A stretch of DNA of 64,000 nt from Patiria pectinifera (Eukaryota; Echinodermata; Asteroidea; Valvatida; Asterinidae): contig CM057147.1 in NCBI GenBank assembly GCA_029964075.1, positions 29,161,513-29,225,512 on the forward strand, in the 5' to 3' direction. Below the pieces are notes generated by a model. The model did not search any database, had not been told where the DNA came from, and saw only the letters and a list, made by a program, of their open reading frames with translations. Below, in pieces: positions 12,581 through 36,339 of this stretch. A program made the translations under genes and the position numbers. The stretch's first letter is position 1, and each line of letters opens with the position of its first letter.

Positions 12581-12801
12581 AGCCTGTCAGTTCCGTCTTC
12601 ATCCTAATATTTGTGGCATGAAATTAAAAAGACGACAGCTGAAGACATTGTCAGGAAATATTAATTGTTCTATTCGATATTTTAATGAAACTGAAATCCA
12701 CGTACACTGTAAACAGTTAACTAGTGAACAGGTGTAAGTCTGAATTGTTTTTTTCTTTTTAACAGCCTGGCATAACGGTAAATTACGAAAGGACCAGTAA
12801 C

Positions 12802-15234
12802 ATGGCATCCTCAGACACCACCGTCTCCCCAGGGTTGTTCATGCTGCCTCTTCCCATCAACAAGGACATTAACATTGACAAAGCTGTGGTGGAGACTAAA
12901 GTCCGAGATCTGAATCACTTCCTCCGAGTACGAACCGGCCGGTCGGAGGAGTTTGCTATCCTGAACCTGCAGGGTCTCCTGACCCTCCGACTTCACCGCT
13001 ATGAGGAGGCCCTTGGCTACTTCCACGCAGTCCTGGCGAAAGACCCGGAGAACCTGAACGCCCTGGCCGACCTCCAGTATGTCTTGGAGAAGCTTTTCAG
13101 ACTGGCCGAGGCAGAACACTGCAAAGATAAGCTGAGCCGCCTTCTCCGATCTCAAGATCAATGTGAGTTGATTGAATCTCAGAAGTTGAACAAAGCCCGG
13201 TGCCTGGCCGAACAGGCTTATGCATATGCCTATGACGTCCATAGCGACACTCTCGAAGGAAAGAGATTCATGGATTCTAATGGTTTGTACCGGAAGGCAC
13301 TGGACCTTGGCGGTACAGCTGTGAAGACTGCTGAGAAAGACGACTGGAAATTATGTATGGCCACCAATGCGCATAAGCTGTTTGACACTCTCTATTATGA
13401 GGACAAGCAGGCTGCAACAGACTACATTGACATCGCTGTAAATTTGTTCTATGAAATCACCCAACGGATTCCCGGCGATCCCGAGTTCCAATGGGATAGC
13501 TGGCGACACTTGGCTGACATTTTCAGGGCGTTTAAAAAAAGAAAGAAGATTTTTAAAGAAGTGCGTAAGGAGCTGATGGAGTACAAGGAAGATCCTGAGA
13601 AGTGCATGCTGAAAGCCATGGAAGTCACCCCCAACAATGCAAGGCTCCTAGCTCGGTATGCCAACTTCCTGTATTCCCTCAACAAGGAAAGTTACCAGAA
13701 GCCCCTGGAACTGTTGGAGCAGTCCATAAGTCTGGATAGCACTGAGTTCAACTTCTACGCATTCACCACCAGAGCAATGATCAACCTCAAATACTACAAT
13801 TATCACGTGAAACAGGCAGCGCAAGACAGCTCGAAGATGGGTCTTCTTAGGAATGCTCTCCAGCTTGCCAAAAGTGACTTGGAGAAAGCCATGGCCATGC
13901 ATGTCACCCCGTGGGATTTGGCCCGCCTCGGAGAGGTCTATTACCTCCTTGCAAAGAACCACACAGAGCAAGACAGTGAGGTCAGGTCCCTGATTGAGAA
14001 AGCCCTTCTGCACTTCACCAAAGCCGGAGATTGTCAAGATGGTCACAAGAGGATTGAAGTACATCGCAGTCGAGGACGCTGCCTGTTTGAGATCGGAGAG
14101 AAGCGCTCAGCGATAGGATGCTTCAAGCAAGCAACAGACTGTGAACCCGCAACTTGCAAATACACTGGCAATTTCAATGAACTCTTGAGTGTTTACCTGA
14201 CCATTCTTCGTGAAGAGAAATCTTCGGAGGACAGGTCCATCTTTGCTGAAACTGCATACTCCCTGAGGAGCGCGGTACTTAAATACGGCAAGAAAAACAT
14301 GCGTTCATTTTGTATTGGTAAGTTTAGATCAGAATATGCAGACGAATTGCAACAGCTGGCTGCTTACTGTGATAAGTTTAAGGAACTCAAGCAACTGGCA
14401 TCCTTACTTAAGTTTGAGGAACCAGTTTCACCTGCAAAAGCAACTATTCACACCGGAGGAAAACTGCAGGGGCCTTGGACTAGAACTTACTTTCACAGAG
14501 CAAGTGACGTAACACAAGGAGTTGCACAAGGTCACGGTACTGCTGCTGCTAGACCTGCAGTTGACGAAGACGAGGAATTGAATAAGGGAGTGGTTGTAGG
14601 GAGTGTGAAAGAAGAAACAGAGGTCGCCCCGGGCATGACCCCTGATGAAACTTTGGATGATGCCTCTGCGTCCTTTGATGCACCTGAGAAGAAAGCCGAA
14701 ATAGCTGAGGCTGACCACGAGATGACGTCTCTGGCTGAAGACGTGGCAAAAATGGCCATCATGAGGCCTTCTGGGGAGTTGAAGGAGCAGCCAATTAGGA
14801 AAGCACCTGAGAAAGCAAGGGTCTCCAGCTTTGAGTATGACTTCTTCGTTGTCTATCCGGAGAACCAGAGAGATTGGGTGTCATACGACCTGCTGGTGGA
14901 ATTGGAAGAAATCCAGAAGTTGAAAGGGTGTACTCGTCACAGGGACGCTATTCCTGGCACCTACAAGACCAGCAGTGAGATTGAACTGATGAAATCAAGT
15001 GCCAGCATTTTATTGGTATACGATAAGAACTTCAGTGATTCAGAGTGCCAGTATTCCATGCACCAAGCTCTCCAGCTAAGAAAGAGCAAGGACTGCAGTC
15101 GGGTTATTATTCCCATCTTACGAGATACTTCAGAGATACCGGATGAGATTAGTGTCTTCAATTATTTTGATGCCACTGGTGCAGTTGACTGGAATAAGTT
15201 GGCACTTTGCATCGAACAGCAGATAGCTCGCTAA
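12802..15234 (+). CDS. TTC22-like TPR protein fused to a TIR domain
   Basis: The 810-residue frame is uninterrupted. It lies in one exon, with a likely 5' UTR splice acceptor (TTTTTAACAG) just upstream at about 12764 and the start context GTAACATGG. Residues about 30-560 are helical TPR-type repeats, including EFAILNLQGLLTLRLHRYEE and ARCLAEQAYAYAYDV, which resemble TTC22. Residues about 560-670 are acidic, low-complexity linker. Residues about 675-810 form a TIR domain: box 1 YDFFVVYPENQRDWV, box 2 HRDAIPG, then SASILLVYDKNFSDSECQYS. The position of the catalytic Glu of NADase TIRs (WCxxE) is Ser here (ECQYS), so a scaffolding or adaptor role is more likely than NAD cleavage. IFIT-like TPR ancestry is an alternative for the N-terminal part. 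No signal peptide or membrane segment, so cytosolic. Confidence 0.9.
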   Translation: MASSDTTVSPGLFMLPLPINKDINIDKAVVETKVRDLNHFLRVRTGRSEEFAILNLQGLLTLRLHRYEEALGYFHAVLAKDPENLNALADLQYVLEKLFRLAEAEHCKDKLSRLLRSQDQCELIESQKLNKARCLAEQAYAYAYDVHSDTLEGKRFMDSNGLYRKALDLGGTAVKTAEKDDWKLCMATNAHKLFDTLYYEDKQAATDYIDIAVNLFYEITQRIPGDPEFQWDSWRHLADIFRAFKKRKKIFKEVRKELMEYKEDPEKCMLKAMEVTPNNARLLARYANFLYSLNKESYQKPLELLEQSISLDSTEFNFYAFTTRAMINLKYYNYHVKQAAQDSSKMGLLRNALQLAKSDLEKAMAMHVTPWDLARLGEVYYLLAKNHTEQDSEVRSLIEKALLHFTKAGDCQDGHKRIEVHRSRGRCLFEIGEKRSAIGCFKQATDCEPATCKYTGNFNELLSVYLTILREEKSSEDRSIFAETAYSLRSAVLKYGKKNMRSFCIGKFRSEYADELQQLAAYCDKFKELKQLASLLKFEEPVSPAKATIHTGGKLQGPWTRTYFHRASDVTQGVAQGHGTAAARPAVDEDEELNKGVVVGSVKEETEVAPGMTPDETLDDASASFDAPEKKAEIAEADHEMTSLAEDVAKMAIMRPSGELKEQPIRKAPEKARVSSFEYDFFVVYPENQRDWVSYDLLVELEEIQKLKGCTRHRDAIPGTYKTSSEIELMKSSASILLVYDKNFSDSECQYSMHQALQLRKSKDCSRVIIPILRDTSEIPDEISVFNYFDATGAVDWNKLALCIEQQIAR

Positions 15235-29955: not shown

Positions 29956-30844
29956 TAAGCCTGTTTAAGTGGTTTGATACATCGGTTGACCATTAATAAT
30001 GATAAGGTTGTGTGTAGCAGCCATTTTAACCTGTCAATTGTACCAATATTTTGAGGCCAGGCCAGTTTACAGACATAGATAGGGTTACCAGCGACAGATT
30101 GTCACTGAGTGTAGGAGGGTTATGTACCGGTTGATTAAATAACAACAATGGTCTTGAAATCATTGTCACCACTGGAGTTGTACCGGGGAGATTCGTTCGT
30201 AGATTCTACCAAAAGGCATACTTGCGAATCTCCCATGTCATGAGCACGCAAGCCTAGAACTAAGCTGCACATCGCCTTTTTTATGTTGTATATTTTTTTC
30301 CCGAAAGTGTTTTTCCCCCGATTATAAGTTACATTGTTCAGACAAATTTCTCACCAAAATCCACAGCAGGCACATCAGCTTCTTTTCTGAATCGGTTGAT
30401 ATGTGGAACACATTACCCCATTCAACCGTTAATTTGTGCAACGTCTACATCAAATTTCCAAAGTAAACAAGTCCCACTAGAACATGTAGGAAGCGTACAT
30501 GTACCAGTACCACCATCATGAAACCGCCAGTTATCATGTTATACTCCCATTAGGATGGTTGTTTTGACGTACAAAGTACAACTTCAAGTACACGGTACAA
30601 TTAAGGCCAAAAAAAAATAGTTCTGCTTCCGATTACATGGCATTCGAAAATAGGGTAGGTAGGGAATTATTTTTTTGCCAATTTTTTTTTGTGTGTACGA
30701 TCATCATATGGAGGCGTCTGCGTGCAGTCAAGGGTAAAATTGATGGTTTTGGGTTTTTTTTCCCTCATTTTTTCCATAAAAACATCTCAGAATAGGGTAG
30801 GTAGGGTACGGAGCCCCTAAAGGGACATCCAAAATATTTTTTTT

Positions 30845-31052
30845 ATCTCGTGCGCACGACATATATCTCGTGCGCACGACATAATTTATCTCGTGCGCAC
30901 GACATATATCTCGTGCGCACGACATAATTTATCTCGTGCGCACGAGATATATCTCGTGCGAACGACATAATTTATCTCGTGCGCACGACATATATCTCGT
31001 GCGCACGACATAATTTATCTCGTGCGCACGACATATATCTCGTGCGCACGAC
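30845..31052. repeat. left palindrome array of the transposon
   Basis: Ten copies of TCTCGTGCGCACGAC (one altered to GCGAACGAC) alternate at 20- and 23-base spacing, giving a 43-base unit with ATATA and ATAATTTA linkers. TCGTGCGCACGA is a perfect 12-base palindrome. These are plausible transposase-binding sites or a self-amplifying subterminal satellite. Confidence 0.9.
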
Positions 31053-31070
31053 ATAATTTATCATCACAGA

Positions 31071-31279
31071 TTCCTTCACTTGGCTTTGATGAAACCCCAT
31101 CGCTGGAGTTCATGCACGACCATGAAGAAGGAGCTCACGGCTCCTTTATCTCTCCATACCCTGTCGCACGTACCTGCATTAACTGCCTGAAGCTGCCAGT
31201 AAAGCACCAAAAATACGATGATTTCAAACGGTATATGCTTGATGGCATCATGGGTGCCAGGGGGTTTGGACTGATGTAA
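31071..31279 (+). CDS. HECT E3 ligase C-lobe fragment inside the transposon
   Basis: Right after the left array, a candidate acceptor (TTTATCATCACAG) opens a 69-codon frame ending in TAA. Its end, YPVARTCINCLKLPV then YDDFKRYMLDGI then GARGFGLM, follows the HECT consensus P-x-H-T-C-F-N-x-L-x-L-P ... GFGL. The catalytic Cys would be in TCIN, and a Phe lies four residues from the C terminus, as HECT ligases require. The rest of the HECT domain (N-lobe, E2-binding part) is absent: the terminal repeat array lies directly upstream. It is therefore a fragment, either cargo of a fuller element or captured from a host gene. Codon choice and the intact tail suggest it was under constraint recently. 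Confidence 0.6.
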
Positions 31280-31754
31280 GCATGAGAGAGATGTAGCAGG
31301 CCCCATCTGATGTATTGTCGCACCTCATGTAGTTATTCAAAGAAGTCTGTCACAAGTGCGGCCAGTGTACATGGTACAATTTCGTTTTCTTGGGAAATTG
31401 CACTGAAACATAAAAGTAATTCTTCTCGAAGTAGAAAGTGCAAGTGTAGTGCACAAAAAAATAGGATTCTGTATGAAGTACTGGGAAACTTTTGGGACCT
31501 AATTGGAAGTATACATACCAGTCTGTACCCATGCTTGACAATGGGGAAAATCCGGTATGTACATTCTGTCTGCATCTCACAAGTCTCACAAGTCTTTTGT
31601 AGAACTTTCTACAGTGTTCTTGTTTTATAAGTTGACTATATTTCAAAACCATGACGTTGATTGAGGTATTCCATTTATATATTCCATGTTTTATAAGTAA
31701 CCCTTTTTATTTTTCTATACTAACTAGTTCATTCGCTAAAGCTTTTTTTACAAA
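31280..31754. other. transposon interior, nothing recognised
   Basis: Short open frames on both strands with no family resemblance. Confidence 0.3.
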
Positions 31755-31895
31755 ACATTGCCAAGGGAATCCGTCGTTGCAAACAACCCGGGCAAAAAAT
31801 ATGTCGGGGCGTCCAGGGAGCACACAGGCATTCCTTGATGGTCAAGTTAGGTGTGGGTTCCATGTCTTGACAATGGGCGAGTGAATAGACCTTTG
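31755..31895 (-). pseudogene. decayed second copy of transposase exon 2
   Basis: Minus-strand reading gives VKTWNPHLT, a stop, then PSRNACVLPGRPDIFF, matching VNTWNRHLIRPSRNARVPFG of the intact exon at 33472-33801. Similarity continues through the former splice acceptor, so this is a genomic duplicate and not a retrocopy. It is clearly dead. Confidence 0.65.
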
Positions 31896-33471
31896 ATGAT
31901 CAGTCTGTCAAACATTCACCTTTCCTGTTGTGTATGTTGTCATCTTGAAACACGTTTAAAAAATGCAGTACAGGAAATGTCTTACAGCGACTAAGGACAC
32001 CTCATAGGCAAGGAATATTATAGCAATTTGCTAACAGAGCGTGAGTATGCATTGGCATTCATCTTGTTTACTGTGAAATTGTCAAAAGGTAAAGGAAAAA
32101 GTTGTCAAACGCTTATGTGTGCCATACAAAGACTTGGTATTTTATCTTGGTAATCATGGGCTGAATGGTCCTGCAAGAAAACAAAATAGCTGAGATTTAC
32201 AAAGCCACGTGATGTTGCCATATAAATTGCCATGATGGAAGTTTCTACTTTTATCCTGTAAGTGCAGAATAATTTTGCGAGATACTAAAAGCTTTCCTAA
32301 GCTAAGCCAAATGATGTTGCCAACAAAACTCAATGTAGCATTGTTACTTGGTATATGAGTAGTCCTGCAATATCAACCAAATATCTCTTGCCGAAGCCAA
32401 AAATGTTGCCAACCAATCTCTCAATAGCTATTTCATGGGTTTTGATACAGATACTTGCCGGTTTCAACTTCTTTGCCGATATTAAAACAATGTGTTTCCA
32501 ATCAGTTTATGTATGTCAAAAACATGCAGTGTTTGATACTTTGTCATGTTACAAGGCATTAAATGTGTTGACGTTTTTGAAAAAAGGATCCCACATGTAT
32601 TTCTTCCTGTTTCTTTGTCTTTATTGGTTTCACTTTTAAATTTGCATTTCTTGCAATGAAAACATATCAGATGTACACATATTTCGATGGCCAGTTGATT
32701 ATCTGATTTGTAATAACTTTCAGCTTTAAAACTATTAACCCCTTTATACTTTCTGATAACAAAATAAATAGAAAAACTTTCAGATTTTGAATCCAGCCTT
32801 AGCTTTTATTAACGGAAGATAATTTGACAAAGTTATTTGCAGCCACCCCACATTAACTTACTTATTCTGTTATAACACCATTACCGGCAATAGGATGGTA
32901 AGAAAAGGTCTTTTGAATGTGAAAGAAAAGTCGTGGGTAAAAAACGTGGAAACTATATAAACATCCATGATAACCACAGGGAGAGTAGGTACGTGTTTCC
33001 ATATTTTGTCTAGCAGCTAAGTCCAAAAATATTTTTTGAAGAATTACGAAACGTGGCACGCATGTCAGGGACCCAGTAGGATCATTTTTCGATTAGGACC
33101 TAACATGGCCGGTCCCCTACAAGTTTGCCAAGTTTCATAATTTCCCCAAAAGGTGAAATATTATGCCATATAATTCAGCTGCTGTGCTAGTTGCTGTAGT
33201 TTAAAAGGTTTAGATCACATTGAATCGAAGTTGATAAAATAAACAGGAAACTACACCTACATTTTGAACTTAGAACACAAAAACAAACCAGCATCGATGG
33301 GATTCCTTTATTAGAAGATTATTAAATTAACAAGTCCATTTCTACAGCCTGAAAATGTAACAAGGTGTACTTTCGGTGACAGCATTATGCTTCATTTGGT
33401 AATGACCGTTTACAGTCAAATACGCTTGCACTGATTCAGTCAGTTTATCGCTACTCTGTCCTGTGGAGTAA
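31896..33471. other. transposon interior, nothing recognised
   Basis: AT-rich, without exon-like stretches. It separates the decayed exon copy from the transposase 3' exon. Confidence 0.3.
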
Positions 33472-35318
33472 CTACATTAGAACAGCAGAAATTGTTCTTC
33501 TTAGATTAGTGTATAAATTTACTGCAGACTCTGGACATTTGGGAAATTCGTATCCATTTTCAGCCATAACTGAACAGCAGAGTTCATGCACGTCTTCGTG
33601 GCAGAGGATCCGTGCTCTATATCTGCATTCATCTTTGGCGATATCAACTCTCACTGAAGACACATTGCAAATGCAATCTGTAGTGTCGTAGAGTGTAGGC
33701 AAGAAGTACATCACGTTTGGACGACCGAAGGGTACGCGAGCGTTCCTTGATGGTCGGATTAGGTGACGATTCCACGTGTTGACAACTTCATCCAACTCCG
33801 CCTGTGAACAGACAATAAACCATAACCTCATTGCAGCAACGGCACTAATAAAATTAAATTAAAAACACTGTGACCAATTCCAAGCCTATGTTATACAAAG
33901 AAAATGTTGGTGCACAGTGGGAATGCAGTGAATGGGTAATAGGAAGAAGGTCCAGTTTTAGAGACAGGAGGAAACCGGAGCACCTGGAGAAAACCAACGA
34001 GAGCGAGTACGGAATGGAAAACAAATGGACTTAAAGTCCATGGACCAAGCCGGGGCTCGAAACAGGGACCTCATAGTGCAAGGGGTCAAGTTTACAGTCT
34101 GGTGATTGCCCTTTTATACTGCTGCCGCGTTGATATCCCTGGTACCGAGCGCATGCCACCTATCTTGAAAATAGTTAATAGGCCTACATGCGCATACAAG
34201 TCCCTGGTTTTCTAATTTGCATCTCCGGTGGGACGCTACAATTACCAAATTGAAATTAATTTGACTCCTCGTGGACCAAGCTTTGCTATATAGTGATAAC
34301 TTATTGGAAAGCTAAAAACAAGTACAATTCGATAAATTATATATTCAACTTTAAAATAATAGGGAATCTTTTTCAACTCGCAATTTTCAAAAACATCGAA
34401 GCAGGTTTTAGAGTCATCGACCTTATAGGTTAAGTACCTCCACGCATGCACATTTTAATTTCACATACCCACCTGAATAAGATGCATGAAGCAGAACTGT
34501 ACGAGATTGACATCAAGGAAGTCCCCAACAAATTCGCCCTCATCTATCATACCCTGAAAGAGACAAATCCAATAGTCGGTGCATTCTCGTCGCAAAATGG
34601 ACCACATGTATTCGATCCTTTGATTTGCTGTACTCGGTCCCTCCAGGTAGCTGTGACCTGTCTCTTCATCGTTTTCATCATCCATCTGTAGAAATGTCTG
34701 GATATGCTTCACATGGCCATTCTCAGTACCAAGATCACCCCGGACGAACCTTGGACATCCAGAAAGGGATTCTACAGCTTCCATGTAGTAACCCCAAGTC
34801 AGCTGTGGATCTGAAGAAGTGTTGTACGCATTCATCCAAACGATTCGTCGTGAGAAGCCGTCGACGCATCCGTTGATGCAGATGCCATATCTCCTAAGTT
34901 TGTCATAGCTATCTATGTGCCAGATGAAGTTTGGACCTTTGGCATAGTACGAGCGACGCAGCAACCTTCGTTTTCTTCTTTGTGTGTTGCCTTCAGGATC
35001 AAGAATTTGAAGTATCATTCGCACATCTTCCTTTTTACATTGTAAGTTATGCAAGTGGCATTTCTCGGACATCCATCTGTATCCATGAAGTTTACCAGAA
35101 ATTTGGATTTGATCATGAATAAATTCGACAACATCTGTAATGTTGGAGTAATATTTTCTGCGGAACAGACCAAGTTTTCTTAGAATTCGTTTGAGGTGTC
35201 GTAGTGATAAAATAATGCCATGCTCCAGCGCCAATATCTGTACAATATCTTTGTACAGAAGGCCCATTTCAAAGTACAGCTTGATGGCTTCATCTCTCAG
35301 GTTGTTGACAGCATCCAT
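33472..35318 (-). CDS. DDE integrase-like transposase (two exons)
   Basis: Exon 1 is 34473-35318, exon 2 is 33472-33801; donor CAG-GTGGGT and acceptor TTCACAG-GC join in phase 0 to give 391 residues. Residues about 1-60 form a helix-turn-helix region (MGLLYKDIVQILALEHGI). The rve-type core has D in FIWHIDSYDK, D in VRGDLGTENG and E in NQRIEYMWSI, with 40 residues between the second D and the E. The exon 2 part (NTWNRHLIRPSRN..PFGRPNV) is a family C-terminal region, rich in Cys further on. The frame has no breaks, so it may still be functional. A possible acceptor just before the ATG suggests a 5' UTR intron. It lies centrally between the palindrome-array TIRs and should bind those ends. Confidence 0.85.
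33880..34140. repeat. SINE-like repeat in the transposase intron
   Basis: Contains GAGGAAACCGGAGCACCTGG then AGAAAACC, a core found in dispersed repeats of many animals. A minus-strand tRNA-like part has box B-like GTTTCGAGCCC. It is inserted between the two transposase exons. Confidence 0.5.
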
Positions 35319-35631
35319 TGTCTGCAGCCTGAAAGGAGATTAATACGTATTTCATTACATGCATACACTCTAGACATCATGTCTGTTACCAATACACTGA
35401 GTGAGCTCAGTTTTAGACAAGACGGATTACCAGAACAACTTTAATTAACGTGCCATGTTCAACCATGTACGATAAAGTAACAGAATGACACTCAATTCAA
35501 TGCGATATAGGCCTAGGTCACGTACTACCTGTTTAGTCACTGAAAATGCTGTCTAGACTTTCCACGCCACTTAGGATTACACAAGTTACACCTTTCTGTG
35601 TACGTACTTCTGTCAAAGCAACCGGGAGATT

Positions 35632-35904
35632 ATGTCGTGCGCACGAGATATAAGTCGTGCGCACGAGATAAATTATGTCGTGCGCACGAGATATATGTCG
35701 TGCGCACGAGATAAATTATGTCGTGCGCACGAGATATATGTCGTGCGCACGAGATAACTTATGTCGTGCGCACGAGATATATGTCATGCGCACGAGATAT
35801 ATGTCGTGCGCACGAGATAAATTATGTCGTGCGCACGAGATATATGTCGTGCGCACGAGATAAATTATGTCGTGCGCACGAGATATATGTCGTGCGCACG
35901 AGAT
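35632..35904. repeat. right palindrome array of the transposon
   Basis: Thirteen copies of GTCGTGCGCACGAGATA (one altered to GTCATGCG) in the orientation inverse to the left array, with the same ATATAT and AATTAT linkers. Confidence 0.9.
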
Positions 35905-36339
35905 AAAAAAAAAAAATTGGATGTCCCTTTAGGGGCTCCGTAGTAGGGAAACCGGAAGCAGAACTATTATTTTTTTGGCCTAATTAGGCACGATCACAGG
36001 GAAAAACATAATGCACACACTTGATGCGTAGTGTGCATTATGGTAGCCTTTCGTGTTTACTCGGCATCCGGAATGCAGTATGGCGAACGAGTCGCGGGCT
36101 ACACCGCACGACCATTGAGAAAATGTCTTAGATAAATTAGTATGTTCGCATCGCCATATCGCGATCAGGCTCCAGATCCTCGTAATCCTGTTCGTAAGTG
36201 TGACGTCATCTCAACTTAGCCATGATGGTGTAGCATGGCACCAATGGAACCGGAATTTAACGCAACTTGAGTGATTATCCAATGGGCGCTCGTAATCAGT
36301 GGTGCGTGCGCGTGTATGACGAAGTCACTTACGAACCGG

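Follow-up and report, generated by a model that had tools for sequence, protein, structure and literature searches.

The accessory genes known from DNA transposons of eukaryotes are few in number, and most of them are unexplained. Among those described are the ULP1 and OTU proteases of the ubiquitin/SUMO pathway, which are carried by Ginger, EnSpm, MULE and Helitron transposons and remove modifiers. Here we describe a transposon found in a 64,000-nucleotide stretch of the genome of Patiria pectinifera (assembly GCA_029964075.1, contig CM057147.1, positions 29,161,513-29,225,512; this whole stretch is hereafter called the window), whose lineage likewise carries a gene acting on ubiquitin-like modification, but with the opposite effect, as the encoded ubiquitin ligase (E3) would attach ubiquitin. 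With a probability of about 0.8 we regard the window element as an internally deleted IS3EU/GingerRoot-like transposon of a lineage whose second gene is such an E3.

The closest described systems are the IS3EU/GingerRoot elements, which, in the available portions of PMC10045372, resemble the window element in a DDE transposase core lacking the HHCC motif, in TA..TA ends and in 6-bp target-site duplications; the same portions make no mention of a ubiquitin ligase gene. In the TET/JBP-carrying IS3EU elements of fungi (Kojima 2025, PMC12730594, of which excerpts were available) a 6-bp duplication is combined with TAYGG..CCRTA ends, and the second gene, an alpha-kinase, lies on the strand opposite to the transposase with TET/JBP between the two. 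The elements described here share the 6-bp duplication, ends of the TAYGG..CCRTA type and a second gene opposite to the transposase, but have a HECT or RING E3 where the fungal elements have the alpha-kinase. The assignment as IS3EU/GingerRoot-like fits by ends, duplication and transposase type, as the available parts of the published descriptions give them. None of the literature matches listed describes an IS3EU-like element with a ubiquitin ligase, and Repbase, which lay outside that search, may record one; a coelacanth paper among the matches was discarded, its topic, as far as the accessible text goes, being retroviral integrases. A scan with one transposase protein, suited to close relatives only, yielded none on the contigs of IMG/VR and GTDB. 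An alpha-kinase companion was rejected for the present genome, since by inspection none of 38 alpha-kinase matches lies near a listed transposase cluster. As a separate observation, 33 of these 38 matches fall within ~1.4 Mb (C22:29.3-30.8 Mb), mostly as long open frames, and form a large local expansion.

The window element spans positions 30807-35942 (5,136 bp), possesses matching TACGG...CCGTA ends and is flanked directly on both sides by a perfect 6-bp duplication, GTAGGG (30801-30806 and 35943-35948). Its inverted arms 30807-30969 and 35780-35942 (163 nt) are 96% complementary, and a second pair of arms, 30884-31057 and 35629-35802 (174 nt), is 97% complementary, so that the matching ends and clean duplication claimed in a preliminary description of this locus are borne out. 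In the left terminal inverted repeat (30807-31062, plus strand), TACGGAGCCCCTAAAGGGACATCC precedes an array of ATCTCGTGCGCACGACAT palindromes, and the right repeat occupies 35629-35942 (minus strand). Tandem palindromic CpG-rich units (TCGTGCGCACGA), perhaps transposase-binding sites, make up most of either repeat (30840-31060 and 35629-35906).

The transposase is encoded on the minus strand by two exons, 35318-34473 and 33801-33472 (the latter including the stop and delimited by its splice junction and the resulting translation), which together give 391 aa without internal stop. Exon 1 holds the catalytic residues D136, D195 and E236, i.e. a D58D40E spacing, and is named rva_4 (PF24764) by Pfam at E 1e-23, while an upstream HHCC motif was absent when a single HHCC pattern was tried. 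The unbroken two-exon DDE transposase of the preliminary description is therefore real. The frame is likewise open in the C14, C16, C20 and full-length C1 copies of the family, all 98-100% identical to that of the window, and is interrupted by a stop in the C6 copy. A decayed partial duplicate of exon 2 lies at 31807-31873 (minus strand) as a 72% direct repeat of 33719-33785.

On the opposite strand, just inside the left repeat, follows the 5'-truncated last exon of a HECT gene (31062-31279, plus strand, PF00632), which comprises most of the C-lobe with the TCIN motif of the catalytic cysteine and the terminal GFGLM, and closes with the stop codon TAA at 31277-31279. Its frame (31049-31276) aligns to positions 241-305 of the 306 of the HECT profile with E 1.3e-4 and 22.2 bits, i.e. 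just below the curated cut-off of 23.9, which the longer HECT exon of the C1, C14 and C16 copies exceeds with 34.7 bits. The profile match is thus weak for the fragment and clear for the whole gene (E 2e-15, see below). What had been described as a HECT C-lobe is indeed HECT with the TCIN and GFGLM end, but a remnant of the last exon rather than a whole C-lobe. The sequence shared with the long copies starts at base 256 of the element, i.e. window position 31062. The HECT fragment of the window copy cannot be active, and the copy could still produce transposase but no working ligase.

A search of the 613-Mb genome that contains the window, from which all data presented here derive, revealed further copies with identical ends that range from 2.3 to 13.1 kb (from end positions, C1 13,081, C16 6,503, C14 6,253, window 5,136 and C10 2,297 bp). 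Their 6-bp duplications all differ: GTAGGG in the window, CAGGAG in C1, AAAACA in C14, AAGTCA in C16 and CAAAAG in C10. A scan permitting up to three substitutions recovered the end motif at 11 of 14 further family loci. Five copies, each on a different contig, share the HECT segment at 100% identity over 219-232 bp, and one more has it at 79%; as four of these five copies (window, C1, C14, C16) are bounded by 6-bp duplications, an origin from a nearby host gene, which the preliminary description had named as a possible refutation, is itself refuted. In the C14, C16 and C1 copies additional sequence separates the HECT segment from the left repeat, the C15 copy matches across the truncated junction of the window copy (99% identity over 1,975 aligned bases), and the C20 and C6 copies retain N-terminal exon sequence with no HECT match there. 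From these comparisons, the window copy is one of several internally deleted derivatives of a longer element.

That longer element is represented by the C1 copy (13,081 bp), which has the ends TACGGAGCCCC...GGGGCTCCGTA and bears on its plus strand a stop-free HECT gene of seven exons and six GT-AG introns encoding 755 aa, of which the window's HECT segment is the seventh and last exon. The exons were read manually and translation was assumed to start at the first ATG of exon 1, and earlier exons are possible; two exon matches that list a stop do so because the alignments overrun the exon borders into introns. The protein covers positions 5-305 of the 306 of the HECT profile, i.e. both lobes (57.5 bits, E 2e-15), and shows no other named Pfam domain above chance. 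Its relatives in the Protein Data Bank (PDB) are NEDD4/Rsp5, SMURF2, HUWE1 and AREL1 (best E 4.5e-9, for Rsp5), with which it shares homology of the N-lobe and C-lobe and the motif of the catalytic cysteine, but from which it differs by its distance and by an unnamed N-terminal domain. C1 hence answers positively the question whether longer copies have a full HECT domain, and the idea of an element with a ubiquitin-ligase module holds for the family, but not for the window copy, which has the remnant only.

Such cargo recurs in many related elements. HECT matches were merged by hand into 57 clusters and transposase matches into 100, both lists being lower bounds, as the search scores best candidates only; one transposase match (C7:3.2186), with no HECT cluster near, was omitted in merging. 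Of the HECT clusters, 29 have an rva_4 transposase no more than 20 kb away, and 28 of these pairs are convergent. When the 53 clusters on contigs of stated size (seven sizes being rounded guesses) were placed at random 2000 times, on average 0.73 and at most 5 came to lie near a transposase. Of the 28 HECT clusters without such a partner, many have several exons and, from a reading of the matches, are host-gene-like, and several (e.g. C15:9.83, C14:36.08, C7:20.96) resemble transposon HECT genes. The suggestion that such elements inflate HECT counts in marine animals is thereby partly supported, within this one species, by the 29 of 57 transposase-linked clusters. Nine of the 29 pairs are situated on the single contig C7, as would be expected if segments with host and transposase-like genes had been duplicated together, no transposon cargo being involved. 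This explanation is hardly credible in view of the precise inverted ends, the differing 6-bp duplications at five loci and copies of such unequal length with identical ends, and a diverged family on C21 adds perfect inverted ends of 24 bp. As an observation of its own, C7, which makes up 7% of the genome, accounts for 47 of the 100 entries in the list of rva_4 transposase clusters and is perhaps a sex chromosome or a low-recombination region.

The C21 element measures 7,480 bp, and its 6-bp duplication contains one mismatch; its ends were searched for in the TACGG..CCGTA form, which is found in two families, that of the window and that of C21. The HECT protein of C21 is a single open frame of 698 codons from stop to stop, and that of another diverged family, on C6, one of 792 codons. 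Tandem arrays near the ends, of a different unit, were also seen in open reading frame (ORF) translations of the C21 family. When 23 transposases were arranged in a tree, those paired with HECT were found to either side of its midpoint root, and the four paired with a RING formed one branch with a support of 84/94 (below the tool's top class). HECT versus RING requires one change on this tree, and HECT versus all other rows, including five unlabelled ones, four.

Both the catalytic motif and the coding sequence as a whole suggest that the HECT protein has been under constraint. The TC of the catalytic motif is retained in 24 of 24 HECT tails, which represent 15 sequence versions, were selected by HECT similarity and include near-copies; in three of them the TC...L-P motif was read by eye, the search pattern having missed it, and one of these three, at C7:18.03, has the motif without the P. 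Between the HECT genes of C1 and a relative on C7, 366 codons gave dS 0.57 and dN 0.097, i.e. dN/dS 0.171 (bootstrap 0.118-0.239), the C7 relative being itself decayed and its last exon usable at 62 of 93 codons. BLAST matches between the two are restricted to exons and exon edges, and together with the dN/dS ratio this points to purifying selection on the HECT protein while the elements spread. The same data bear on an alternative, a single passive capture, by which one family took up a piece of host HECT as filler without any role. It would agree with the truncated exon of the window, with deletions in other copies that removed most or all of HECT and with the presence of host-like HECT genes in the genome, but we consider it very improbable, given the full-length open gene of C1, its dN/dS of 0.17 and the TC at all 24 loci. 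It is also contradicted by the pairing across the transposase tree and by diverged families that share one N-terminal domain.

This domain, with the pattern W...VR..GGG....FFP.G, stands at the start of the HECT protein and was found across diverged HECT families. Its matches to Pfam families did not rise above chance (of five members, one reached the best E of 0.23), and the one PDB chain that matched it (E 1.2) is put down to chance. Searches with two versions of the domain gave 50 different matches in the genome; 32 of them have a transposase no more than 25 kb away, to which 29 are convergent, and 18 have none at that distance. A same-strand HECT occurs within 12 kb of 22 matches and a RING near two, in a count for which host-like HECT clusters were excluded and two additionally opened loci included. 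Several occurrences (C10:22814147-22814452, C9:15091737, C5:18490916, C12:783513 and others) have neither a transposase within 25 kb nor a same-strand HECT or RING of transposon type within 12 kb, and are possibly old remnants or domesticated genes.

In one branch of the transposases a RING apparently replaces HECT. Beside the C3 transposase, at the place expected of HECT, lies a RING finger (zf-C3HC4_3, E 1.2e-12) with the C3HC4 pattern of zinc ligands; the profile match is from this locus only, and other RINGs were called by similarity to it. The RING is convergent to the transposase at C3, C4, C7:15.07 and C7:13.22, with distances of 1 kb at C4 and 6 kb at C7:13.22, and the N-terminal domain lies upstream on the same strand at C3 (5 kb) and C7:15.07 (3 kb). 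Some of these RING matches contain stops. A further RING, at C7:3.196, sits 22 kb from the transposase match C7:3.2186.

From the footprints of transposition, the two-gene layout, the pairing across the transposase tree, the retained catalytic cysteine, the constraint on HECT measured in one pair and the RING at the place of HECT in one branch, we derive the following model. Between its TACGG...CCGTA inverted repeats, an intact element has two genes in convergent orientation. One encodes the integrase-like DDE transposase, which cuts and pastes the element and creates the 6-bp duplications, and the other the E3 protein, in which the N-terminal domain, unnamed but conserved, is followed by a linker that varies and, at the C terminus, by HECT (in one branch apparently RING). 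The N-terminal domain may select a target, which the E3 part would then ubiquitylate; the likeliest class of target would be host factors that hold the element in check by silencing or repair, acted on in trans. Action in trans is suggested because copies that lack most or all of HECT resemble the full copy as closely as they resemble one another. That a whole lineage of cut-and-paste transposons of eukaryotes has a modular E3 as its standard second gene, with a constant targeting domain and an interchangeable catalytic part, RING in one branch and HECT in the majority, that ubiquitylation itself is selected and that much of the HECT expansion in genomes of this kind is cargo, is a broader proposal on which we are evenly divided. 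If it is true, the swap of HECT and RING behind one targeting domain would mean that ubiquitylation, likeliest of a host restraint, is kept by selection.

Several observations weigh against these interpretations or narrow them. As regards the target, the proposed host restraint is pure inference with about an even chance, and we favour it over the transposase. An E3 directed at the element's own transposase would limit or time its level and so spare the host, in keeping with the copy-number self-control that is common in transposons, with the location of two convergent genes on a single element and with the persistence of deletion copies that have an open transposase frame and no working ligase. 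We consider this unlikely, though by no means negligible; the difference between HECT and RING is compatible with either target. In the window, C14, C16 and C20 copies the transposase frame is open but HECT is incomplete or absent. As copies with an open transposase frame and without a working HECT have moved, the ligase is dispensable in cis. Furthermore, 71 of the 100 transposase clusters show no HECT match within 20 kb, and one of the 29 pairs is not convergent. Among four opened loci without a HECT match, that on C17 contains a HECT gene with an internal deletion and that on C3 the RING; as some thus carry a gene on opening, 29 of 100 paired transposase clusters is a lower bound. At C14:49.5 a stop-crossing frame, in which Pfam found no HECT, shares 25% identity with the C21 protein (E 2e-30), and C14:36.93 shows nothing in the 4.3 kb read. 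Some transposase copies are clearly without the ligase gene.

The modular composition of the E3 is subject to similar reservations. Pfam recognises only the C-terminal third of HECT in the C21 (195-293) and C6 (210-305) proteins. The N-terminal domain and RING, which lie 3-5 kb apart on one strand, are presumed to form one spliced protein, and no N-terminal domain was present upstream of the C4 RING in the stretch read. Identities of HECT C-lobe and transposase run parallel only to some degree (Mantel r 0.33, p 0.018), and the nearest relatives of the two coincide in 4 of 13 families. We thus make no claim of strict co-evolution, the agreement being partial, which renders some exchange of cargo between transposon families possible. 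Finally, the whole case is built on the sequence of one genome.

A ligase that is constrained, paired with transposases across their tree and apparently exchanged makes the question of its target, and of escape from silencing, directly testable. Moreover, roughly every second HECT cluster detected here adjoins a transposase, so that lineage-specific HECT 'expansions' elsewhere may in part be mobile DNA, a share that can be checked in any assembly.

Outside the element, the plus strand of the window (12763-15231) contains an ORF of 823 aa that combines TPR repeats with a TIR domain at the C terminus (PF13676, E 6e-7) and looks like a host immune-type protein.

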